From positions 2,108,001 through 2,172,000 of the forward strand of contig NZ_LT670818.1 in NCBI RefSeq assembly GCF_900129505.1: 64,000 nucleotides of DNA, given 5' to 3'. The translations under genes were made by a program, and so were the position numbers. The notes below the pieces were generated by a model. The model was not told the DNA's origin and did not search any database. It was given only the letters and a program-made list of their open reading frames with translations. This DNA is from Bradyrhizobium erythrophlei (lineage in GTDB: Bacteria; Pseudomonadota; Alphaproteobacteria; Rhizobiales; Xanthobacteraceae). Positions 8,221-32,966 of this stretch are shown here, piece after piece (position 1 is the stretch's first letter; each line of letters opens with the position of its first letter).

Positions 8221-9036
8221 TCACACCTCCAGCGTCACCGTTACCGGCACATGGTCGGACGGCCGCTCCCAGCCACGCGCATCGCGCGTGATCCGGAAAT
8301 CGCTGACGCCATCCTTCAATGCGCGCGAGACCCAGATGTGATCGAGCCTTCGGCCGCGATCGCCCACCGTCCAGTCCGCGGCGCGGTAGCTCCACCAGGT
8401 GTAGACCTTTTCCGACAGCGGAATGCGCTCGCGCGCGACGTCGAACCATTCGCCATGCGCCTGCGCTGCCAACAGCTTCTCGCATTCGATCGGGGTATGC
8501 GACACCACCTTCAGTAGCTGCTTGTGCGACCACACGTCGTTGTCGTGCGGCGCGACATTGAGATCGCCGACCAGGATATGGCGGTCGTCGCCGCGCGGAT
8601 GCAACGGCTCGCAGGCCTTCATCTCGTCGAGAAACTGCAGCTTGTGCTCGAATTTCGGGTTGAGCGCGGGATCGGGAATATCGCCGCCGGCCGGAACGTA
8701 GAAATTATGCACGACCAGGGGTTTCGACAGTTGCGCCTTTTCGCCGAAGGCGACCGTGATGTGCCGCGAATCGATCTTGTCGCAGAAGGTGCGGATATCC
8801 GTGGTCTCGAACGGCAGCTTCGAAACCACGGCGACACCGTGATAGCCCTTCTGCCCGTTCAGCGCGACGTGCTCATAGCCCAAGCGCTTGAAGCGCTTCA
8901 GCGGGAAAGCGTCATCGATGCATTTGGTTTCCTGCAGGCACAGCACGTCCGGCCGCACCGCCTTGAGGAATTTGGCGACGAGGTCGATGCGCAACCGCAC
9001 CGAATTGATATTCCAGGTTGTCAGAGAGAAGCGCAT
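8221..9036 (-). CDS. xthA: Exodeoxyribonuclease III (AP endonuclease)
   Basis: ExoIII removes abasic-site DNA and 3'-blocking groups in base excision repair. The protein starts MRFSLTTWNINSVR and carries LQETKCID (metal-binding Glu), the GDLNVAPHDNDVW block, and the catalytic SDHVPVTVTLEV at the C-terminus. At 271 residues it has the family length. The frame is open further upstream to 9096, but the ATG at 9036 is the conserved start of the family. It lies downstream of the LolA-like gene on the same strand with a 69-base gap. Confidence 0.96.
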   Translation of the reverse strand: MRFSLTTWNINSVRLRIDLVAKFLKAVRPDVLCLQETKCIDDAFPLKRFKRLGYEHVALNGQKGYHGVAVVSKLPFETTDIRTFCDKIDSRHITVAFGEKAQLSKPLVVHNFYVPAGGDIPDPALNPKFEHKLQFLDEMKACEPLHPRGDDRHILVGDLNVAPHDNDVWSHKQLLKVVSHTPIECEKLLAAQAHGEWFDVARERIPLSEKVYTWWSYRAADWTVGDRGRRLDHIWVSRALKDGVSDFRITRDARGWERPSDHVPVTVTLEV

Positions 9037-9105
9037 GGCGTCCGGCTGGGCAGGAAAACGTGCGATTGAAGACGCACGTCTCTGCCCGGCAATCAAGAAT
9101 GATTT

Positions 9106-9897
9106 TCAGCCGGGCGGCGTTCCGTAGTTGGTAAAGTCGATCTTGAACAGGCTGGGATCGGGTTTCCTCGAGGAGTCCAGATTGTAGATCGCGACCGTGG
9201 TGTCATAGCCCTGCGGATCGGTCACCGTCCACTGCTTGAGCTGGCCGTCCTTGGCGCCGACCATCAGCATCAGTCGGCTGGTGCCGATCAGCGCCTGCTT
9301 CTCCTCGATGGTGACGCTGACGAAGAGGTCATCGGACGTCACGCTGACGACGTTGGTGTCCTTCATGAGGTCGATGCGATCCGACAACAGATAGCGCAGC
9401 GGCGTCTGCGATAGCGGATAGATGTCCTGGGTCGCGAGCTTGCGATCGCGCACCGCCACCGCCGATCCGTCGGCGATGATGTCGATCGGACTCGGATCGT
9501 CATACTCGAAGCGCACTTTGCCGGGCTTCTGGATGTAGAAGTCGCCCTTGGTCTTGCTGCCGTCGGGACCTACTTGCACAAAATTTCCGGCCAGTGTCTG
9601 CAGCGACGACAAATAGGCGCTCACCTTGGCGGCCTGGGCCTTCTGGCCGGCATCGAAGCTCGCAAAAATGCTGGCAGGAATATTCCGCCGCGGATCCGGA
9701 ATCACCGGGTCCGGCGGCGTCGCCGAAGTCGCACCGGTCGTGACCGGCGCTTTCTGCTGTTCCGATGCACCCATCTGTACGCGGTCGCGTGCCTTCGGCG
9801 CGGGCTTTGGTATCGGGAGGTTCTGCGCGGAAGCGGATGGTGCGACGGCAACGCAGACCACGGATGCCGTAATCAGCAATATCAGCCCATGGCGCAT
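9106..9897 (-). CDS. LolA-like outer-membrane lipoprotein carrier
   Basis: A predicted periplasmic LolA-fold protein that escorts lipoproteins from the inner to the outer membrane. With the ATG at 9897 it begins with a good 24-residue signal peptide (MRHGLILLITASVVCVAVAP..ASA). Blocks typical of LolA follow: AYLSSLQTLAGNFVQV, GDFYIQKPGKVRFEYDDPSP, and the C-terminal SSRKPDPSLFKIDF. Between the signal and the domain lies a proline-rich linker of about 60 residues. The frame extends to a TTG at 9966, but that would bury the signal peptide. It follows ftsK on the same strand, a common alphaproteobacterial order. Confidence 0.87.
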   Translation of the reverse strand: MRHGLILLITASVVCVAVAPSASAQNLPIPKPAPKARDRVQMGASEQQKAPVTTGATSATPPDPVIPDPRRNIPASIFASFDAGQKAQAAKVSAYLSSLQTLAGNFVQVGPDGSKTKGDFYIQKPGKVRFEYDDPSPIDIIADGSAVAVRDRKLATQDIYPLSQTPLRYLLSDRIDLMKDTNVVSVTSDDLFVSVTIEEKQALIGTSRLMLMVGAKDGQLKQWTVTDPQGYDTTVAIYNLDSSRKPDPSLFKIDFTNYGTPPG

Positions 9898-10082
9898 GCC
9901 GCCCCCGGCGGTTGGCCGGGCCCTTCGAAGTTTTGGATTTCCAGGAAGTTTTGGATTTCTATTCAACGCGGGATCCTGTCGGGCTATCGCCTATTTTATC
10001 GTGATTTCGACTAAAGGAGATAACGTTTTTCCGTGAAAATTAAATTCCAATCTCGCAAAATCCTTCGGCCGGGTGCTTCCAC

Positions 10083-12527
10083 TCAAAAGCCGCTTTCTTC
10101 CTCCTCGACCAGAATCTCGCGTTTTCCGGCGTGATTCGCCTGGCCGACGATGCCCTCGAGTTCCATACGCTCCATCAGCGAGGCTGCGCGGTTATATCCG
10201 ATCTGCAGCCGGCGCTGGATGTAACTGGTGGAGGCCTTGCGGTCGCGCTTGACGATCGCCACCGCCTGCGAGAACAGGTCGCCGCCGCCATCGCTGCCCA
10301 TGCTGGTGGAGTCGAACACCGCACCGTCTTCGTCGGTGGGCTCTTCCGCGGTGACCGCTTCGAGATATTCCGGCTGACCCTGCGTCTTGAGGTGACGCAC
10401 CACCTTCTCAACCTCTTCGTCCGAGACGAAGGGCCCGTGCACGCGGCTGATGCGGCCGCCGCCGGCCATATAGAGCATGTCGCCCTGTCCGAGCAGCTGT
10501 TCGGCGCCCATCTCGCCGAGGATGGTGCGGCTATCGATTTTCGAAGTGACCTGGAATGAGATGCGGGTCGGGAAGTTCGCCTTGATGGTGCCGGTAATGA
10601 CGTCGACTGAGGGGCGCTGCGTGGCGAGAACCACGTGCAGGCCGGCGGCGCGCGCCATTTGCGCCAGGCGCTGCACCGCGCCTTCGATGTCCTTGCCGGC
10701 GACCATCATAAGGTCGGCCATTTCGTCGACGATGATGACGATATAGGGCAGCGGGTCGAGATCGAGCTTCTCGTCCTCGTAGATCGCCTTGCCGGTCTCC
10801 TTGTCGAAGCCGGTATGCACCGTGCGCGTCAGTTCCTCGCCCTTGGATTTGGCTTCCAGCAGGCGAGCGTTGTAGCCGTCGATGTTGCGCACGCCGAGCT
10901 TCGACATCCTCTTGTAGCGCTCTTCCATCTCGCGCACCGCCCATTTCAGTGCGACCACGGCCTTTTTCGGGTCGGTCACGACCGGCGTCAGCAAATGCGG
11001 AATGCCGTCATAGACGGAGAGCTCAAGCATCTTGGGATCGACCATGATCAGGCGGCACTGATCCGGACGCAGCCGGTACAGCAGGCTAAGGATCATGGTG
11101 TTGATGGCGACCGATTTGCCGGAGCCGGTGGTGCCCGCGATCAGCAGATGCGGCATGCGCGCCAGGTCGACGATGATGGAATCGCCGCCGATATTCTTGC
11201 CGAGACATAGCGGAAGCTTCGCGACCGTTTCCGCATAGTCCTTGATCGCCAGCAATTCGCGCAAATAGACCTTCTCGCGATGCGGATTCGGCAGTTCGAT
11301 GCCGATAGCGTTGCGGCCGGGAACCACCGCGACGCGCGCCGAGAGCGCGCTCATTGATCGCGCGATGTCGTCGGAAAGCCCGATCACCCGCGACGATTTG
11401 ATGCCGGGCGCGGGCTCGAGTTCGTACAGCGTCACCACCGGACCCGGATGAGCCTTGACGATTTCGCCGCGGACGCCGAAATCGCCGAGCACGCCTTCCA
11501 GCGCGCGCGAATTGGATTCCAGCTCCGACTTGCTGAGCGGCTGGCGGTCGGAGGCCCTCGGCGCGGTCAGCACGGAAACCGGCGGCAGTTCGAACCGGTC
11601 GGAGGATTTGCGCGACGGCGCACGGGCCGCGGCCTTCTTGCGCGGAGCGCGGGCGGCGGGCGCCCCCTCTTCCTCGTCGTCTTCCTCGTCGTCGAGTTCT
11701 TCTTCCGCCCGCGGGGCCAATGATGGCGCCGTGCGGCCGAGGCTGGGCTCCTGGCGTTCGAACGAGAGCGGGCGTGGCGTCGCCGCGCTTGAGACCAGCG
11801 AGCCATAAGCCAGCGTCAACAACCGCCACAGCCGCGCCTTCGCGCTCATCGCGGCGTGAAACGCCCATCCCAGCGACACCGAACCGGCGTCTTCGTCTTC
11901 CTCGAACGGCGTTTCATCGTCCTCGATCGAGGTCAAATCGTCCTCCTGCGGGCGCGAGCCCATGCCGCTCGCGAACAAGAATGCCGCGACGCAGGCCGCG
12001 AACAGGATAGTCCCGAGCACCAGCCGATAGAGCAGACCGGGCGGGCCGAACACCACCGCCGGCGCGCGTACCAGCGCGTCGCCAACGACGCCGCCGAGTC
12101 CGGTCGGCAGCGGCCACGCGCCGCCATGCGGCCAGCAGCTGGCAAAACCCGCAGCGATCGCCGCGCACAGGATCCAGCAACCGATTCGCAGCGCCTCGCG
12201 GTCGAAGCCGCGATGGGTCAACATCCGCCAGCCCCATATGGCGACCGGCAGGATCAGCATGATCGCGCCCAAACCCATAATCTGCATCAGGAGATCGGCG
12301 GCGATTGCGCCTGGATAACCGAGGACGTTGCGGATGGCGCGCGACGTCGCATGGCTGAGGCTCGGGTCCTGCACCGACCAGGTCATCAGCGCTGCCGCCG
12401 CCAAGCCCGAGAGTCCGATCAGGCCGAGGCCTGCGAGTTCGCGCAGGCGCCGCGTCAGGGCCTCGCGGATCACGGCCGGCAACTGGCCGACCAGGGGAAT
12501 GACACGTTCGATCGCCGGCATGCTCAT
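10083..12527 (-). CDS. ftsK: DNA translocase FtsK
   Basis: FtsK pumps chromosome DNA at the division septum and helps resolve dimers. The 814-residue protein has four N-terminal membrane segments within residues 30-190, then an acidic and Ala/Arg-rich linker. The motor domain has the Walker A motif GTTGSGKS near residue 464 and the Walker [13 protein letters not shown] near 596. The C-terminal gamma winged helix ([22 protein letters not shown]) reads KOPS-like sites. The linker is shorter than in E. coli FtsK but normal for alphaproteobacteria. It starts 12 bases after the aminotransferase stop, suggesting co-transcription. Confidence 0.97.
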
Positions 12528-12539
12528 GGGCCTTCGCGA

Positions 12540-13754
12540 CTAATCCAGAATTTCCACCAGCCGGTGCAACGCCTCGGCTGTCGTTTCGCTGTCCGCGACC
12601 AGCGCCAGGCGAATATAGCCGGCACCGGGATTGCTTCCGTCGTGTTGCGGCCGCGCCAGGTAGCTTCCGGGCACCACGCGCACGCCGGCTTCCTTGTAGA
12701 GTCTCACCGTGGCCGCCTCGTCGCCGCCGCGATCCGACACGTCGAGCCAGACGCAGAAGCCGCCGGCCGGCCTGACATAGCCATAGCGATTGCCGAGGAT
12801 CTGGTCGGCGAGATCGAATTTCATGCGGTAGAGGCGGCGGTTTTCCTCGACATGTGCCTCGTCGCCATAGGCCGCGATCGCGACATGCTGCAGTGGCACC
12901 GGCACCTGGGGCGCTGCGACGTTGCGCAGCTCGTGAAACATGCCGAGAAACTTGCTGTCGCCGGCGGCAAAGCCGACCCGCATGCCCGGCAGGTTCGAGC
13001 GCTTCGACAGCGACTGGAACGCGACCACATTGGTGAAATCAGGCCCGGCGCATTCCAGCATGCTGCCGGGCGCTTGCTTGGTGTAGATTTCCGAATAACA
13101 CTCGTCGCTCAGGATCATGAAACCATGGCGGTCGGCGAGGGTTTTCAGACGGCTGAAATATTCCTTCGGGGCAACCGCGCCTTGCGGGTTTGCGGGCGAG
13201 GCGATGTAGATCGCGACCGTGCGGGCCAGCGTGGCGTCATCGAGCGCATCGAGATCGGGTAGAAAGCCATTGGCCAGCGTGGTCGGCAGAAAGATCGCCT
13301 CGCAGCCTGCGGCGCGGGCGCCCGCGGCGTAAGCGGGATAAAACGGATTCGGAATCAGAATCGCCGGCCTGCCCCGGCGTTCGCGGACAAAGCGGGCCGC
13401 GGTGAGCGCTGCGAAGAACAATCCCTCGCGGCTGCCGTTGAGCACCAGAAGTTCGGCCTCGGGATCGACCGCCCGGGGCAGCTGGAACCGGCTGGAAAGC
13501 CAGCTCGCCGCCGCCCGCCGGAACGGCTCGATGCCCCTGGCCATGGGATAGCGGCCGAAATCGGCGATATGTTTCGCCAGCACCGGGCCAACGAACGCCG
13601 GAACCGGATGCTGCGGCTCGCCCAATGACAGCGTAATCAAGGGCTTACCGGGCTGGTACGGGGCCAGCAATTCGGTCAGCCGGGCGAATGGCGAGCGCTC
13701 GCTTTCGTTGCTGCCGGCGCGCTCTGGCGCACGGGATGAAGCGGTCATTGCCAT
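12540..13754 (-). CDS. Class I/II PLP aminotransferase (DapC-like)
   Basis: A 404-residue fold-type I aminotransferase. Recognisable elements include LSLGEPQHPVP near the N-terminus, NGSREGLFFA (cofactor phosphate site), IASPANPQGAV with the conserved Asn, LSDECYSEIY with the cofactor Asp-Glu-Tyr cluster, and SLSKRSNLPGMRVG with the Schiff-base Lys near residue 248. The pattern best fits the succinyldiaminopimelate transaminase-like group used in lysine and cell-wall biosynthesis in alphaproteobacteria, but substrate cannot be proven here. It directly precedes ftsK. Confidence 0.88.
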   Translation of the reverse strand: MAMTASSRAPERAGSNESERSPFARLTELLAPYQPGKPLITLSLGEPQHPVPAFVGPVLAKHIADFGRYPMARGIEPFRRAAASWLSSRFQLPRAVDPEAELLVLNGSREGLFFAALTAARFVRERRGRPAILIPNPFYPAYAAGARAAGCEAIFLPTTLANGFLPDLDALDDATLARTVAIYIASPANPQGAVAPKEYFSRLKTLADRHGFMILSDECYSEIYTKQAPGSMLECAGPDFTNVVAFQSLSKRSNLPGMRVGFAAGDSKFLGMFHELRNVAAPQVPVPLQHVAIAAYGDEAHVEENRRLYRMKFDLADQILGNRYGYVRPAGGFCVWLDVSDRGGDEAATVRLYKEAGVRVVPGSYLARPQHDGSNPGAGYIRLALVADSETTAEALHRLVEILD

Positions 13755-24512: not shown

Positions 24513-24866
24513 GTGTTCGCTGTGCCGATGATGAAAAGACTAACCTTGGCTGCCGCGGTCTGCGGCATCGCGACGCTTCAAGCGGCTCCGTCGCAGGCGC
24601 AGCAGGCGACCGAGATCCGGCTGACCTATTCCAACGGCCAGTTCCAGCCGAGCCAGGTGAGCGCGCCGGCCGACAAGCCGATCTTGTTCCGGGTGAAAAA
24701 TCTCGACGGCAAGGCCATGGAGTTCGAGAGCACGTCGCTGCGGGTCGAAAAAGTGGTTGCCGCGGGTACCGAAGGCGTCATCAACGTGCGGGCGCTGAAG
24801 CCCGGACGCTATGAATTCTACGATGACTTCAACGACAAGGCGCGTGGCGCCCTGACCGTGCAATAG
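24513..24866 (+). CDS. Periplasmic cupredoxin-like protein
   Basis: About 117 residues with a signal peptide (MMKRLTLAAAVCGIATLQAAPSQA) and a cupredoxin-type beta domain: IRLTYSNGQFQPSQVSAPADKPILFRVKNLDGKAMEFES, ending RYEFYDDFNDKARGALTV. Similar domains accompany EfeO and FtrB in ferrous iron uptake and may oxidise Fe(II). The usual copper Cys is not visible, so metal loading is uncertain. The GTG at 24513 has AGGA six bases upstream; ATG codons at 24528 and 24531 are alternatives. The FTR1 gene starts 11 bases after its stop. Confidence 0.82.
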   Translation: MFAVPMMKRLTLAAAVCGIATLQAAPSQAQQATEIRLTYSNGQFQPSQVSAPADKPILFRVKNLDGKAMEFESTSLRVEKVVAAGTEGVINVRALKPGRYEFYDDFNDKARGALTVQ

Positions 24867-24877
24867 GTGAACGCACG

Positions 24878-25708
24878 GTGCTGGCTGCCCTCATCATCGT
24901 GTTCCGCGAGGTGTTCGAAGCCGGATTAATCGTCGGCATCGTGCTCGCGGTGACCGGTTCGGTGCCGCACCGCAATCGCTGGATCGGCGGCGGGGTGCTG
25001 GCGGGCGTCCTCGCGGCCTGCGTCGTTGCCGCGTTTGCCGGTGCATTGTCCCAGCTGTTCGCGGGCATGGGGCAGGAGCTGTTCAACGCGGCGATCCTGG
25101 GCGTCGCCGTTGTCATGCTGACCTGGCACAATGTCTGGATGGCGCATCATGGCCGGGAAATGGCCGGCGAACTGCGCCAGGTCGGCCAGGCGGTGGTTGA
25201 CGGCAGCAAGTCGCTGCTGGCGCTGGCCGTGGTGGTCGGTGTCGCCGTCTTGCGCGAAGGCAGCGAGGTTGCGCTGTTTCTCTATGGCGTTGCCGCCTCC
25301 GATGGTGGATCGGCCTTTAGCCTTGCGATCGGCGGCTTCATCGGTCTCGCGCTCGGAGTGGGCGTTTGCCTGTTGACCTATTTCGGCCTGATGCGGATCC
25401 CGCCGCGCGCGCTGTTTACGACCACCACCGCCCTGATCACGTTGCTCGCGGCCGGCATGGCGACGCAGGCGGTGGCTTTCCTCGAGCGCGCCAATTGGCT
25501 CACCTCGCTCGACACTGTGGTCTGGGACACCGGCTGGCTCCTTCCCGAAACGGGTATCGCCGGGCGGACCCTGCATACCCTCATCGGTTACACCGATCAG
25601 CCGACCGAAATGCAGCTAGTGGTCTACGCCGCCGTGGTGCTGGCGACCTTCATGCTGATGCGGCTGACTGGATCGCATCCCAACGACCGCGCCGTCGCCG
25701 TCGGCTGA
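24878..25708 (+). CDS. FTR1-family iron permease
   Basis: A 276-residue polytopic inner-membrane protein related to EfeU/FtrC/Ftr1. It carries the two diagnostic iron-binding motifs of the REXXE type: REVFE in IIVFREVFEAGLIVG near residue 10, and REGSE in VLREGSEVALFLYG near residue 126. About seven membrane helices are predicted. The start is GTG 24878. Directly downstream of a cupredoxin and a barrel-like protein, it forms a compact three-gene uptake unit without the usual peroxidase (EfeB) or ferredoxin (FtrD) partner. Confidence 0.92.
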   Translation: MLAALIIVFREVFEAGLIVGIVLAVTGSVPHRNRWIGGGVLAGVLAACVVAAFAGALSQLFAGMGQELFNAAILGVAVVMLTWHNVWMAHHGREMAGELRQVGQAVVDGSKSLLALAVVVGVAVLREGSEVALFLYGVAASDGGSAFSLAIGGFIGLALGVGVCLLTYFGLMRIPPRALFTTTTALITLLAAGMATQAVAFLERANWLTSLDTVVWDTGWLLPETGIAGRTLHTLIGYTDQPTEMQLVVYAAVVLATFMLMRLTGSHPNDRAVAVG

Positions 25709-25787: not shown

Positions 25788-27569
25788 CTAGCGTCTGTCG
25801 GAAAGACCCGCCAGCATCATCGCCACCTTGAGATCCTGCATTCCCGCTCTGGCGTCGCTCGCAACCTGGAATGCCAGTGGGGTCGGGTTCAACGGCAAAT
25901 GCGTAACGTTGGCTGGGCCGCGCGGCGGCTCAAACGCTTCAGCGCCGCTCGCGCCGGAGCGAATCCGGTCCAGCTGCCGGACGGCGCGGCGCATCTCGCG
26001 CAGTCCGGCATCGAGCGGCGCCGCCAGCGGCCGATGCCCGGAGGTGACGCCGAGCGCCTGCGCCGCATTCGGCAGTCCGGCGCCGGTCTGCCAGGGGGCG
26101 CCGATCGGCTGCGCCGTGCCTTTGAGGATCTGGAACAGCCGCTCGATCCGCTGAAGATCCCGGCTCGCAAAGCCACTTCTGAAGTCGCCATGGTGGGCCA
26201 GGACCAAGGCCGCAAGCGCCGTCACATGGGCTGCGGCCAGCGAGGTGCCGTCGCAAACCGCGTAGCCGTCCGGCGACTGGCACGCAACGACCGCGACACC
26301 GGGCGCGCACAGGTCGAGTTCGGGTCCGCGGCATGAAAACAGCGGCACAAACAACCCTCCCCCGACCGCAACGGCGGCCGCCGCCTGAACCGCTTGTGGG
26401 CTGTCTTCCGGGTAGCTCCCGGTCTGGCCGATCGCCCCGATCGCCATGACATGCGGAGAGCACGCGGGAAACAGCACCGGTCCGGCAGAATTTCCCGCGG
26501 CGGCGATCACACCGACGCCTTGCTGTTTCGCCGCGGCGATACGCTGCTCGATGATAGCCGAACCGCGTTCGCAGCCGAAACCGAGGCACGCAACATCGAT
26601 GCCCGCTTGCAGACAATAATCCAGCGCCGCTATGAGGTCGCTGCAACGCGCGTCGGGAGGAAGCTTGCAAACATACAGCTCGCTGTCCGGTGCGTAACCG
26701 CGGATCATGTGCGCCTCGTCCGGCGTGGCGGCTATGAGGCCCGCGCACGGCGTGCCATGGCCCATGAAATCCTGTGTCCAGGAGCGCTCTTCGCCGCCTC
26801 TGACATCGATGCCGTGAGTCACGCCCGCCAGTTGCTTGTGGCTGGTAGCAACGCCGCTGTCGATCAGGGCGATCTTGATACCAGCGCCGCGACATTCAGT
26901 CGGGAGCTGATCGAACCTCATTGCCGATGCGCCCCAGTCCAACTGGTCGGTTGGCGACAGCGGTTCCAGGGTAAGAGGGTTTACGGTGTCGGCCTGAAGG
27001 TCTGGCCGGTGACGCCATAACCCCCAATAGCCCGAGCGCGCATTGACAAACAGCTCGGCGACCGTTTCCGGCAGTTCGCCATGGAGGGCCAGATCTATTC
27101 TGCCATCCTTGCCGGTCTGCCCTTGCGCAGAGGCCTGGCTGCCGAGCAGGCGCACCTCGGCTTGCTCAATGGGTTCGCCGCCCTTGCCCGACACCTGGAT
27201 TGTCACCGTGGAATCCGGGCCGAGCGCGGTCATCGCAGGCATGGTCTGGAACCGTAGCGGCGCAGCCGCAAATGAAGCCGCTCGCAGGTAACGGTCCGGC
27301 TCGACGACGAATGCGCCAGCGCCGGACCGGCGCAGCGCGGCGGCGTTTTCTTCGGACATGCGGACCACCGCGATCGGCGGGGCAACCGCTTCGCGTTCGG
27401 CGTAGGTCCGCAGGATTTCGATATTGCCCGCACGTTTAAGCCGGTCGACCAGTTCCTGCTGAGTTACTTCCGATGCCACCGGGGCGATCATGTAGTGGCG
27501 TCCGGATGCGGGCTTGGGGCGCCGGCTGCTGCGCGAGGCGGAACGGGTATCGTCTGCACTTGCCATCAT
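25788..27569 (-). CDS. Leaderless S8 subtilisin-like protease with carboxypeptidase-regulatory-like domain
   Basis: A 593-residue protein with no signal peptide (MMASADDTRSASRSSRRPK). Residues about 30-110 resemble a subtilase prodomain. About 118-190 look like a carboxypeptidase-regulatory beta domain (TVTIQVSGKGGEPIEQAEV). The S8 domain follows with catalytic Asp in ALIDSGV near 236, His in DFMGHGTPCAG near 272, oxyanion Asn in AAAGNSAG, and Ser in CDGTSLAAAH near 443, a variant of GTSMAAPH. A charged tail of about 100 residues follows. ATG 27569 has GAGAGG upstream. It begins 16 bases after the small helical protein and is probably in one operon with it and the repeat protein, so it may process them. 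Confidence 0.88.
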   Translation of the reverse strand: MMASADDTRSASRSSRRPKPASGRHYMIAPVASEVTQQELVDRLKRAGNIEILRTYAEREAVAPPIAVVRMSEENAAALRRSGAGAFVVEPDRYLRAASFAAAPLRFQTMPAMTALGPDSTVTIQVSGKGGEPIEQAEVRLLGSQASAQGQTGKDGRIDLALHGELPETVAELFVNARSGYWGLWRHRPDLQADTVNPLTLEPLSPTDQLDWGASAMRFDQLPTECRGAGIKIALIDSGVATSHKQLAGVTHGIDVRGGEERSWTQDFMGHGTPCAGLIAATPDEAHMIRGYAPDSELYVCKLPPDARCSDLIAALDYCLQAGIDVACLGFGCERGSAIIEQRIAAAKQQGVGVIAAAGNSAGPVLFPACSPHVMAIGAIGQTGSYPEDSPQAVQAAAAVAVGGGLFVPLFSCRGPELDLCAPGVAVVACQSPDGYAVCDGTSLAAAHVTALAALVLAHHGDFRSGFASRDLQRIERLFQILKGTAQPIGAPWQTGAGLPNAAQALGVTSGHRPLAAPLDAGLREMRRAVRQLDRIRSGASGAEAFEPPRGPANVTHLPLNPTPLAFQVASDARAGMQDLKVAMMLAGLSDRR

Positions 27570-27585
27570 GGCACTGCCTCTCAAT

Positions 27586-28044
27586 TCAATGAATTGACGA
27601 TAGAGTCTGTTCGGACGATGCCGAGCGCGGCGGTGGGATCCGGGGATCGGCGGCGCGGATCGTTTCAATCACGCGGTACGCCAGCCAAATCCGATTGAAG
27701 GCCTCGGCATAATCCCGCACGGCAAACCGATGCGCGGCTTGCGTGACGACGGGAACGCAGCCTTCCAGGCCGGCATACAACGCGGCATTGGCCTCAAGAT
27801 AGGCCGAAAGCGTGCGGAGCGAGTCCGCAATCATATCTGCGATCAGGTTCGCCGCTGCCTGGTGATCGAGCGCCGGGTTCGGAACCACGGCGTTGTCTTG
27901 TGTAGTCTGGGAGGGCTGCTCAAAGCCTTGCGACTGCAGCCGCATCAAGAGCGGCATCAAATTGCCGAGCAAGCCAAGGAGCCGTTGAATGTCTGGCGGC
28001 TGCGGCTGGGATGCCGTCGCGGCAGAGGGATTGGAAGCTGACAT
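27586..28044 (-). CDS. Small helical protein of the subtilase cassette (unknown function)
   Basis: A 152-residue protein without signal peptide or recognised domain. The N-terminus is Ser/Ala/Gln/Pro-rich. Residues 18-41 (DIQRLLGLLGNLMPLLMRLQ) form an amphipathic helix with a pattern like the triple repeat of the next gene upstream. The middle (AAANLIADMIADSLRTLSAYLEANA) and later part (RDYAEAFNRIWLAYRVIETI) also look helical. The tail is Pro/Ser-rich. ATG 28044 has GGAGAA upstream, much like the site of its neighbour. Flanked by a repeat protein and a subtilase, it could be a substrate, adaptor or structural partner (inference). Confidence 0.72.
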   Translation of the reverse strand: MSASNPSAATASQPQPPDIQRLLGLLGNLMPLLMRLQSQGFEQPSQTTQDNAVVPNPALDHQAAANLIADMIADSLRTLSAYLEANAALYAGLEGCVPVVTQAAHRFAVRDYAEAFNRIWLAYRVIETIRAADPRIPPPRSASSEQTLSSIH

Positions 28045-28148
28045 CGATGTTCTCCTTCATCGGGACGCATTCGTTAGTAGCGGAGGGCGACGGCCGCCGC
28101 TTCACGCGAGCGGCGGCCGTACCTCACCGTCGGGCTGGCAGCGCGCGG

Positions 28149-28916
28149 TCAGATCATCCGTTGCTGGTTAAAAGCCTGAAGGTTGCCGATGACTTGCGGG
28201 ATCACCCCGATGAGCTGGCGGGTAACATCCGCGACGTCCTGTTGTGTCAGTTGACGCTGCTGCTGTCCCCAGGCGCCCGGAGCGCCGAAGGCCGATTGGA
28301 ACTGCGGCATTCCATACGGCGCGCCGAAACTCTGCCCGGGATTGCCCTGCCCGAATTGGCCGAGACCGAGCCCGCCCTGCATGGCCGCGTACTGGAGCTG
28401 CGGCTGGCCCTGCAGCATCCCGATAATCTGCGGCACGATCGGCAGCAGCTGCCTTACCACTTCGTTGACATCCTGCTGACTGAGCTGCCGCGGTGCCTGG
28501 CCGTAAGCGGCGTATCCCATTGCAGCATGCGGTGACTGCGCCTGAGCCAGAATCTGCGGCAGCGCCGGCGCCAACTGCCGCACCACTTCGGTCACGTCCT
28601 GCTGTGAAAGCTGCCGCTGCTGCTGGCCGCCCCATTGAGGCTGCTGTTGTTGGCCCCAGCCCTGAGGTTGCGCGCCCCATCCGGCGTTGTATCCGAAAGC
28701 GCCGATAGAGGGCTGTCCGCCATATTGGCCGTATTGCTGGCCATAGGCTGCTTGTCCATAACCGCCGTGCCCGTAACCGCCAATCGCCTGCATCCACGGC
28801 GCGTTGGCCCACGCGCCGTATGGCTGGGCGGTTTGAGAACTGAAACCGCCCCATTGCTGCGGACCGAACTGAGGATTATGCGCCGGATTCTGTTGCTGTG
28901 TGTCGAAGTAGGTCAT
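28149..28916 (-). CDS. Gln/Gly/Tyr-rich protein with three copies of a helical repeat
   Basis: A 255-residue, signal-less protein. The first 95 residues are low complexity, rich in Gly, Gln, Tyr, Trp and Ala (YGHGGYGQAAYGQQYGQYGG), like prion-like or amyloid-forming segments. Three copies of a repeat of about 24 residues follow near 101, 143 and 221, with consensus RQL-S/T-QQDV-x-E/D-V-V/T-RQL and then a hydrophobic PQI-I/L end. They are joined by Gly/Gln/Pro-rich linkers. It ends NLQAFNQQRMI. Strong ribosome binding site AAGGAG before ATG 28916. I do not recognise the family. It is the first gene of an apparent operon with the small helical protein and subtilase. Confidence 0.78.
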   Translation of the reverse strand: MTYFDTQQQNPAHNPQFGPQQWGGFSSQTAQPYGAWANAPWMQAIGGYGHGGYGQAAYGQQYGQYGGQPSIGAFGYNAGWGAQPQGWGQQQQPQWGGQQQRQLSQQDVTEVVRQLAPALPQILAQAQSPHAAMGYAAYGQAPRQLSQQDVNEVVRQLLPIVPQIIGMLQGQPQLQYAAMQGGLGLGQFGQGNPGQSFGAPYGMPQFQSAFGAPGAWGQQQRQLTQQDVADVTRQLIGVIPQVIGNLQAFNQQRMI

Positions 28917-29492
28917 CGCTTTTCTCCTTGCGATGGTTGGTGCCCCTCAGCCCACTACGAACAAAGACCATCGGCCTTCGCACGCTAACTACTCGTAATG
29001 AGAGCAAAGCCTTGGTCGCACAGCCAAGCTTTGGTCGCACAACTAAAGACGAAATCACTCGCTCTCCGTCACTGAAGATCAATCGGGATCACTCAATCGG
29101 GACAGGTCCGCCCGAGCGCGTCTGCCCAAATCCGTCAACGTCCGTGCCGTTTCCGCGGCGAGACGCTTTTCAGAGAACAGAAGGATGGCGGTGTTGGACA
29201 GAGTCGAGGGACGAATGCGAATGCGGCCGTCGTTGCCTGTCGCGCTTGAATTCATCCCGGATGCGAGCTGACCGTGGTCCGGTTCGATGCTCCGTTTTGT
29301 TCGCTCCCGAAATATTTTTTATGAGCGTGAGAATTCTGATGCGACAATGCATCGAACGAGCGATATTTTTGCGGAGCCCCAGCGTTATTTTTGTGAAGAC
29401 TCTGTGCACGGTTCCAAAATGCCGTGCCCTCGCTGCGCGACCGGCAAATGCAGCTATGCAATTTTATACGGCTACGACATTTGATTCGAACA
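28917..29492. other. Long leader region upstream of the repeat-protein operon
   Basis: A 576-base gap less GC-rich than its surroundings (for example ATATTTTTTATGAG near 29312). No convincing gene was found; a 228-codon plus-strand frame over it runs into the M48 gene and lacks coding character. An exact 11-base direct repeat, TTGGTCGCACA, at 29012 and 29031 is listed separately. Confidence 0.6.
29012..29041 (-). promoter_or_regulatory. Direct repeat TTGGTCGCACA upstream of the repeat-protein operon
   Basis: Two exact 11-base copies, 29012-29022 and 29031-29041, 19 bases apart, about 100 bases upstream of the start of the Gln/Gly-rich protein. Position and spacing fit a regulator-binding site, but no regulator is known. 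Confidence 0.35.
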
Positions 29493-30572
29493 TCAGCAGG
29501 CAAGACCAAGCAGCGCGCCGACGCGCTCCGAGGTGGCGGGATGGCTTCGAAGCAGGCGCATTGGGCCATCCTCATACGCCGTGACGGAAAGGGCCGGAAA
29601 ACCGGCATGGTGCCGCTCGAGCTTGTCGAGCGCGGCGATCAGCGCTTGGGAGTCTCCGGTCAGTTCCAGCGCGGTCGCATCCGCATCCAGTTCGCGCGTG
29701 CGTGACAGGGCCAGGCGAAGCAACTGGCCGATTGCCGGCGCGGCATTCAGCAGCGCCGCCAGGTACCGATTGAGCGGCATGCCGCCATGTTGCGCACGCA
29801 GCGATGCGAGACCGGTCGACGAGGTCCACTCGATCGCACGATGCTGCGCCGCTGCCCAGCTCATCGCCCAGGCGTCATTGTTGCGGATGTGAGCGACTTC
29901 ATGGGCCATGATGCCGGCCATCTCGTCGCGCGTCATCCCGCGCAGCAGTCCCTCGGTCAGCACGATCGCGGCGTCCTCGGGGCCACCCAGTGCATAGGCA
30001 TTCATGTCGGCGGGAGCCGCGATGCAATAAAGATCCGGTAATCGGGACAGGCCGGCGCGGTGGCAGACGCTCGCCAGCATATCAAAGAGTTCGGGCAGTT
30101 CAGCCGGATTCAGGAGGCGCGCGCCGAACCAGCGGTACATCGCCTCGCGCGATATCGTCGAGCCGCCGGGTTGCGGTGCGTTTCCGACCAGTGCTCGCCG
30201 AGCGCCCTCGGGCCCGCCGACGATCCAGCCGCATACCGCGTGCAGCAGCGTCATCGCCGCCAGTGCCAACGCCGACGATCGAAGGTTTGAACTTGGATGG
30301 GCCGGCCGTTGAGGCCGCCTGAGCGCTTGATCCTGCGAATCCACCTGAATCTGGCAGCGCAGGAAAGTGCCGGCCTGTTGTAACGGGAAAAGGATTTCGA
30401 CGATGACGGCCGCGCCGGATCGTAGAACGCGCAGCATTTGCATCTGCGGTGCAGGACGCACCAGCGCAAATGATATGCGAGGGGAGGGTTCGGCGAAGGC
30501 ATAGGGCCGCGCGCGCCGAGCTTCGCGTTCCAAGCTAATGTTAAACACCCCCGCAGTCCCCCAAACCGCCAC
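29493..30572 (-). CDS. M48-family zinc metallopeptidase (HtpX/BepA-like catalytic domain)
   Basis: About 359 residues. The zinc site HEVAH is near residue 224 in IMAHEVAHIRNNDAWA. The third ligand Glu lies in RTRELDADATALELTG near 290, the standard M48 pattern. One hydrophobic segment (SALALAAMTLLHAVCGWIVGG) lies around residues 100-120 and could anchor the enzyme, leaving an unusual N-terminal part of about 100 residues. The GTG at 30572 is only the longest possible start; ATG 30443 or 30437 would shorten it. It lies 576 bases upstream of the repeat-protein operon on the same strand. M48 proteases usually handle membrane-protein quality control. Confidence 0.85.
   Translation of the reverse strand: MAVWGTAGVFNISLEREARRARPYAFAEPSPRISFALVRPAPQMQMLRVLRSGAAVIVEILFPLQQAGTFLRCQIQVDSQDQALRRPQRPAHPSSNLRSSALALAAMTLLHAVCGWIVGGPEGARRALVGNAPQPGGSTISREAMYRWFGARLLNPAELPELFDMLASVCHRAGLSRLPDLYCIAAPADMNAYALGGPEDAAIVLTEGLLRGMTRDEMAGIMAHEVAHIRNNDAWAMSWAAAQHRAIEWTSSTGLASLRAQHGGMPLNRYLAALLNAAPAIGQLLRLALSRTRELDADATALELTGDSQALIAALDKLERHHAGFPALSVTAYEDGPMRLLRSHPATSERVGALLGLAC

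Positions 30573-32891: not shown

Positions 32892-32966
<75 letters not shown>

Follow-up and report, generated by a model that had tools for sequence, protein, structure and literature searches.

In a 64,000-nucleotide stretch of the Bradyrhizobium erythrophlei genome (NZ_LT670818.1, positions 2,108,001 to 2,172,000 of a 9.18-Mb genome in one contig; hereafter the window), four minus-strand genes follow one another in the transcription order M48, QREP, HEL and SUB, and encode, respectively, an M48-type metallopeptidase, a Gln/Gly-rich repeat protein, a small helical protein and a subtilase. The ORFs, coordinates and spacing of this run, here called the type-1 cassette, were verified and agree with an earlier note on this DNA, including gaps of 104 bases between QREP and HEL and 16 bases between HEL and SUB (Table 1). 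The predicted SUB start is most likely the ATG at 27569 rather than the TTG upstream at 27668, and the M48 start most likely lies near the ATG at 30443, roughly where conservation sets in by eye, rather than at the GTG at 30572. Between the relatives compared, all four genes give dN/dS values of 0.09 to 0.26, with several dS values above 1, and are therefore real genes under purifying selection. A promoter scan found no promoter, and terminators were at chance level.

Table 1. Features of the type-1 cassette, in transcription order (positions in the window unless residues are stated)
Feature	Position	Strand	Description
M48	29493..30443	-	HtpX-like metallopeptidase; one hydrophobic N-terminal stretch by eye; start inferred from conservation
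Possible QREP start-codon hairpin	28914..28935	-	CATCGC, AAGGAG-containing loop, GCGATG
QREP	28149..28916	-	255 aa, Gln/Gly-rich; three copies of an amphipathic 26-residue motif
G+C-rich stem-loop, no U-tract	28087..28123	-	Intercistronic, between QREP and HEL
HEL	27586..28044	-	152 aa, between QREP and SUB in the type-1 cassette; helical by eye
SUB	25788..27569	-	Leaderless subtilase, 593 aa; conserved C-terminal tail ending AGL
SUB domains			Prodomain-like, residues ~24-95; beta-strand domain, ~120-201; Peptidase_S8, 228-462

The four genes are one conserved, inherited unit. In a sample of 146 Bradyrhizobium genomes, with M48 counted at E ≤ 1e-40 and close SUB homologues at an identity of at least 65%, QREP, HEL and M48 each occur in the same 14 genomes; 12 of these, and no other genome of the sample, also have a close SUB homologue. 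The earlier note had left it to such a comparison whether the genes form one locus or prove unlinked elsewhere; the homologues are linked, and the Bradyrhizobium loci keep the order M48, QREP, HEL and then SUB, where SUB is present and reached. The flanks, most of which were named by eye, change from locus to locus. The FTR1, LON-domain and thioredoxin-type neighbours of the window are not found at other type-1 loci, a TonB-receptor side is common to several of these loci, and one (L032) lies at yet another site. Because gene order is constant while the flanks change, the cassette is a unit kept at several addresses. An order-level search returned HEL in 1 of 297 genomes and QREP in a single genome, in both cases B. 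erythrophlei itself, and QREP had no match in plasmids and no confirmed match among 140 viral-contig stretches. Three candidate loci were dropped: a HEL match of 29 residues inside a 1658-aa ORF (L033), a match inside a membrane-fusion-type ORF (L035) and a 39-residue match in a short frame that overlaps with a different ORF (L036).

SUB carries a Peptidase_S8 domain (Pfam, E 3.4e-32) that contains the catalytic Asp, His and Ser and the oxyanion Asn of this peptidase family, and these residues (D237, H271, S443 and N360) are invariant in all 11 close homologues and in all nine sequences of another alignment. Its serine motif, GTSLAAAH, had been called a variant; we take it to be a mild variant of the usual GTSMA. 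The carboxypeptidase-regulatory-like domain that had also been proposed for SUB falls below the Pfam threshold (E 0.26), as does a phage-collar match below its own cut-off (E 0.0034); what stands of that proposal is a run of strands at residues 120-201 in the AlphaFold model, at moderate confidence. The model is weak overall (mean pLDDT 46, with the catalytic domain low), and within it residues 24-91 form a block with pLDDT of ~71-84 and a beta-alpha-beta-beta-alpha-beta order, which presumably resembles the I9 inhibitor fold. Consistent with the earlier description of SUB, HEL and QREP as leaderless, no signal peptide was visible in any of the three by reading, a dedicated predictor not having been run. 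Because SUB has no export signal and has its own N-terminal prodomain, its location is probably the cytoplasm and its activity is probably restrained.

QREP matches no Pfam or NCBIfam family. Its Gln content of 22.7% is the highest among 60 non-overlapping window ORFs of at least 120 aa, the next reaching 9.3%, and its sequence is nearly uncharged and rich in Gln, Gly and Tyr. The label prion-like given in the earlier note holds for composition and no further. The three motif copies noted there start at residues 101, 143 and 221 and follow the form RQL(S/T)xQDVxxVxRQLxxxxPQ(I/V), with strongly conserved repeats and variable linkers. The helical moments of these repeats (0.60, 0.63 and 0.56) were reached by 0, 1 and 10 of 1000 shuffles, respectively, for segments that, as in all proteins compared, were picked by eye. 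HEL likewise matches neither library, and the helical moment of its N terminus was reached by 18 of 1000 shuffles. By eye, HEL looked like a fourth copy of the QREP motif; this was rejected, as the motif profile score was not significant and shuffled HEL scored higher. M48 has both the Peptidase_M48 domain (Pfam, E 1.1e-26) and, in its translation, the HExxH signature of these peptidases as HEVAH; its best score against the NCBIfam HtpX models, 114.3 bits, lies below the cut-off of 369 and does not make it an HtpX equivalog. In PADLOC, a match of QREP to Cas11e (E 0.0021) looks like chance, and HEL and M48 gave none.

The system is wider than first described. In a tree of 28 subtilases, 19 fall into one clade with support of 98/98, and upstream of every one of the 19, separated by no more than one small gene, lies a gene for a low-complexity or tandem-repeat protein. 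Because similarity of the subtilase served to collect the clade members, whose partners were afterwards identified by eye, this result carries a selection effect. The 19 stem from Bradyrhizobium, a second family of the same order, plasmids of Streptomyces and one prophage-like contig. The nine non-clade subtilases were examined less closely: upstream ORFs were seen for L080-L084, L093 and L102, hardly any sequence extends upstream of L092, and the neighbours of L019 were not read. A second subtilase family, at 39-47% identity, is present in 15 other genomes of the 146, none of which has QREP. Its type-2 cassette comprises a BTAD regulator, a tandem-repeat protein (R2), a small protein and a subtilase. 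At all 16 type-2 loci, which include two further genomes from the order search, R2 units (3-8 each) and the small protein are present, and the regulator, identified as BTAD by Pfam in L073, occurs at 14, some contigs being cut or masked. The R2 units are near-identical, with Pro/Ala-rich linkers between them. At L066 and L071, a protein of >1000 aa with, by eye, nucleotide cyclase, ATPase and repeat domains lies upstream of the BTAD gene.

Four further partner types were found. The fifteenth second-family genome (G064) has a partner of Gly-zipper-like repeats together with a small protein. The subtilase of G449, a genome from a different family within the order, comes after a gene for a Q-rich protein and has a LuxR-type regulator close by. 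A Streptomyces search that covered plasmids gave three full copies on two plasmids, each after a Q-rich protein, one copy having one stop inside the match. In viral contigs, 78 loci matched the subtilase alignment, and the best one (L105) was read further; a 40-kb IMG/VR contig, Bacillota-type by eye, carries a repeat protein, a small protein and a subtilase. The prophage-like cassette (L188, ~8500-12615, G914) is flanked directly by a phage integrase on one side and, on the other, by an arbitrium-type regulator of the AimR family (Pfam, E 4.4e-44), which is followed by a repressor-like HTH_3 gene. The partners R2, G064 and prophage have in common a regular-expression pattern of PQ(G/D) plus an aromatic or aliphatic residue, and the helical moment is high in the R2 unit (reached by 0 of 1000 shuffles) and in the prophage unit (3 of 1000). 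Close relatives of the subtilase are rare, occurring in 6 of 397 order genomes (E ≤ 1e-50) and 2 of 385 class genomes (E ≤ 1e-55), self included. A phage search with the Streptomyces subtilase returned 12 records, all matching in the S8 domain only, and the prophage subtilase had no match in phages at E ≤ 1e-40.

HEL and M48 (the latter at E ≤ 1e-40) were not found in the 15 second-family genomes of the genus sample, and neither was noticed beside the other partner types. Because they are thus tied to the type-1 cassette, they do not belong to the core, which is a subtilase plus a low-complexity partner; HEL and M48 are local additions.

In three of the five other partner types (type-2, G064 and prophage), a separate prodomain-like protein is encoded between the partner and the subtilase. 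Eighteen of these small proteins (17 collected by pattern from the type-2 and G064 loci and the prophage one added by hand), jointly aligned and compared with 19 subtilase prodomains, gave an hhalign probability of 95.2% (E 2.5e-8, 59 columns), against 0.4% for HEL and 0.2% for QREP as controls. Such a separate protein would be a sign that the intracellular protease needs restraint. Upstream of one non-clade subtilase, a 76-aa protein (L080, 7194-7424) appears by eye to be another separate prodomain.

The type-1 cassette also contains RNA elements. The AAGGAG-type ribosome binding sites, described earlier as near-identical in the first two genes, are real in QREP and HEL and are kept in most relatives. 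The stem-loop after QREP folds in the window and at 18 other loci. Over the 19 aligned sequences, pairing extends to 91.4% of 266 cells, a level attained by 5 of 500 shuffles, and double-sided changes affect 10 cells, compared with a shuffled mean of 4.1 (0 of 500 shuffles); slid controls pair at 29-61%. Other measures are weaker, the covariation score being reached by 24 of 500 shuffles, the count of pairs changed on both sides by 84 of 500, and that of further pair types being reached or exceeded by 495 of 500. R2 is also trailed by a similar hairpin in both type-2 loci that were folded (n = 2). Intercistronic elements of this kind can raise the abundance of the upstream cistron over that of the downstream cistron, and the hairpins after QREP and R2 are in keeping with more partner than protease being made. 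In addition, a CATCG upstream of QREP is complementary to the start codon region, and the hairpin that the two can form would have the Shine-Dalgarno sequence as part of its loop. The 5-bp form of this stem is present in 21 of 21 leaders tested and the 6-bp form in 19 of 21; the sequence being conserved, this hairpin is without covariation support, and comparable start-codon complementarity occurs at 2 of 55 other window ORFs.

Several observations concern the surroundings of the cassettes. On the plus strand of the window, at 24513-25708, an FTR1-family permease and a Cupredoxin_1 protein (both by Pfam) are convergent with SUB and resemble an iron uptake set, and a tRNA-Gly (gcc) lies at 32892-32966, 2.4 kb from the M48 start. 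At L020 and L099, QREP, HEL and M48 stand without a subtilase near what by eye are kynurenine-pathway genes, with no subtilase remnant at E 1e-3 to 1e-4. On a 5.5-kb contig (L096, G090:C11), a second M48 copy, unaccompanied by QREP, lies at 2067-2978, ~0.5 kb from an ORF that is transposase-like by eye.

Six partner types all show a subtilase paired with a low-complexity or repeat protein, from which the natural inference is that the protease would act on its neighbour. We propose, with a probability of roughly 40%, that SUB and QREP are a cognate protease-substrate cassette in which cutting frees or activates membrane-acting or assembling helices, likely arresting or killing the producer. In such a cassette, SUB would be made without an export signal and restrained by its own prodomain until needed, and QREP would probably be made in excess, as three amphipathic helices on flexible linkers. 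Upon a trigger, SUB would cut QREP, probably in the linkers, and the helices thus freed or exposed could act on membranes or assemble. The outcome would most likely be arrest or death of the producing cell, as a defence against phage or a response to stress; harm to neighbours would be a less likely outcome. HEL may be an accessory that controls or bridges SUB and QREP, and M48 an accessory in Bradyrhizobium that may act at the membrane or clear products. A protease-triggered membrane-active effector is favoured because several partners are amphipathic or glycine-zipper-like, the restraint is prodomain-like, and homes include plasmids and a prophage. In its broadest form, the proposal would describe a cross-phylum system, outside the family libraries searched and carried by chromosomes, plasmids and prophages, that joins a subtilase with a prodomain, active inside the cell, to a rapidly changing helix protein of low complexity. 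Together they would make up such an effector, with a gasdermin-like logic built from disordered repeats in place of a folded pore-former; we regard this extension as speculative and, as a whole, unlikely. The observation reported in the earlier note is confirmed. Its interpretation is partly supported, in that SUB may process the repeat protein; triggering of SUB by assemblies of that protein would be conjectural.

A number of results weigh against this proposal. Two of the 14 genomes (G007 and G046) keep M48, QREP and HEL without SUB, and QREP therefore has some role without SUB, which weighs against a strictly obligate SUB-QREP pair. The type-1 cassette has no separate prodomain-like protein, and the small proteins of G064 and the prophage were compared inside the joint alignment only. 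Long branches and warnings about composition (L188, L190, L104 and L103) affect the tree, and the partners outside Bradyrhizobium were identified by reading translations. Shared ancestry of QREP with the other partners was considered and is not supported, although distant homology may escape a profile this narrow: the motif profile scored no better on them than on shuffles (1000 each), with 191 shuffles equalling or exceeding the real score for the prophage partner, 580 for R2, 558 for G064 (where the real sequence gave no match), 172 and 416 for Streptomyces and 356 for G449. Because there is no QREP-motif homology beyond shuffles, the partners may not share one function. Helical moments are, moreover, borderline in the G064 unit (35 of 1000 shuffles) and unremarkable in the R2 N terminus (198 of 1000) and the Streptomyces helices (589 and 130 of 1000). 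In PADLOC, SUB matched a generic subtilase model only (E 3.7e-22), with no complete defence system. Finally, exporters near some cassettes are a feature that an internal effector would not need.

These exporters bear on an alternative in which each repeat protein is a polyprotein. The subtilase would free from it several copies of a short amphipathic peptide for export as a bacteriocin or signal, in the manner of RiPP (ribosomally synthesized and posttranslationally modified peptide) maturation but with no modifying enzymes involved. The three QREP units, the 3-8 near-identical R2 units with their Pro/Ala-rich linkers, and the hairpin after the precursor gene would all suit such a multi-copy precursor. 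HlyD- and MacB/FtsX-type exporter genes lie beside the subtilase, convergent with it, at 4 of 16 type-2 loci (L066, L067, L071 and L072), and the type-1 locus L032 has an RTX protein and a C39-type ABC transporter 2-6 kb downstream of SUB. The four sets of exporter genes are, however, 90-91% identical, in loci that form one close group, and homologues (E 1e-10, full length) were found in none of the other 12 type-2 loci or the 16 type-1 loci searched, some with cut contigs, so that the exporters may reflect a shared address rather than a part of the system. A Bradyrhizobium subtilase (L084, G028:C4:190000-203850) lies beside APH, HopA1 and LANC_like genes, which we take to be a class V lanthipeptide-like cluster. 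It provides the only link to RiPPs and falls outside the 19-member clade, beside whose members no modifying enzyme was noticed. In RiPP systems, including those of PatA/PatG and ElxP, an S8 protease acts on a neighbouring precursor. Cytoplasmic S8 proteases such as ElxP mature RiPPs (PMC10885120). SUB scores 26.6 bits against the cyanobactin PatA/PatG protease profile (TIGR03895), far below its cut-off of 421.05, and the Streptomyces and G449 partners have no tandem units by eye. We consider a precursor role unlikely, though the likeliest of the alternatives.

A different role for the repeats would be structural, with QREP forming condensates, fibres or a coat in the cell, SUB and M48 trimming or dismantling these, and HEL serving as a client or chaperone. 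The nearly uncharged, Gln/Gly/Tyr-rich composition of QREP, its conserved repeats on variable linkers, the very Q-rich Streptomyces partners, the co-inherited M48 peptidase and the two genomes that keep QREP and HEL without SUB are all consistent with such an assembly. Against this, the Gly-zipper-like and lysine-containing repeats found elsewhere look, by eye, membrane-active rather than scaffold-like, and a patchy distribution in mobile contexts would be unusual for a structural organelle; we judge an assembly rather improbable. The two SUB-less genomes are in turn awkward for the view that SUB itself is the effector, a toxin cutting host or phage proteins and held or sensed by its low-complexity partner, since persistence of QREP, HEL and M48 without SUB would be odd for an antitoxin. 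Subtilase toxins are known, as in the AAA-ATPase/S8 pairs tested in mycoplasmas, in which the ATPase is the antitoxin, and in IetS, where an S8 protease and a controlling partner are found on mobile DNA (PMC8562856), and the plasmid and prophage locations, together with weak IetS profile matches of the type-2 subtilase (E 2.5e-4 and 9e-4), point the same way. The type-1 cassette, in contrast, has no AAA-ATPase partner, and partner repeats are kept as conserved units, leaving a protease toxin the least probable of these explanations.

A protease-triggered effector, the reading that we prefer, has its closest parallel in fungi, where the subtilase HET-Q2 cuts the gasdermin-like HET-Q1; HET-Q1/HET-Q2 and Q2-like pairs are two-gene clusters with an S8 subtilase beside a protein activated by cutting (PMC10989679). 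The bacterial cassette differs in its domain of life and in a low-complexity partner with short helices, for which activation by cutting is our proposal; QREP has no gasdermin match in Pfam, a comparison at the sequence level only. QhpE is a cytoplasmic subtilase that processes QhpC, its protein substrate encoded in the same operon (PMC7876137). The S8 domain of SUB matches the QhpE model NF049966 (E 6.2e-17, 61.7 bits) below the cut-off of 165; SUB has an extra prodomain and beta-strand domain, and a reading of the flanks by eye brought no other qhp genes to notice, no search having been aimed at them. The best NCBIfam S8 match of SUB is to the mycosins of type VII secretion (TIGR03921, E 5.5e-30), again below the cut-off (104.7 versus 278.75 bits); a signal peptide or anchor was not noticed by eye. 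PopC of Myxococcus is likewise a subtilase that lacks a signal peptide, and a partner, PopD, binds and inhibits it; PopC, however, is secreted and cuts a surface protein, and the available part of that account mentions no low-complexity repeat substrate (PMC6434023). A self-suppression agent of Bradyrhizobium, which its authors think unlikely to be a protein (PMC11896636), was not used as evidence.

The earlier note knew of no described system of this composition. In agreement, we found no description of it in the open-licence literature, subscription papers not being covered, and none of the family libraries searched describes a core of subtilase plus low-complexity partner. If our reading is correct, this pairing of a subtilase with a low-complexity helix protein would be a recurring module overlooked by annotation, since the partners have no family match and no recognizable sequence in common. 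A class of protease-controlled effector would be added to those of bacteria, intracellular subtilases of unknown use would gain a substrate, and the pair would be a simple two-gene model in which to study the control of membrane-active or aggregating proteins by proteases.

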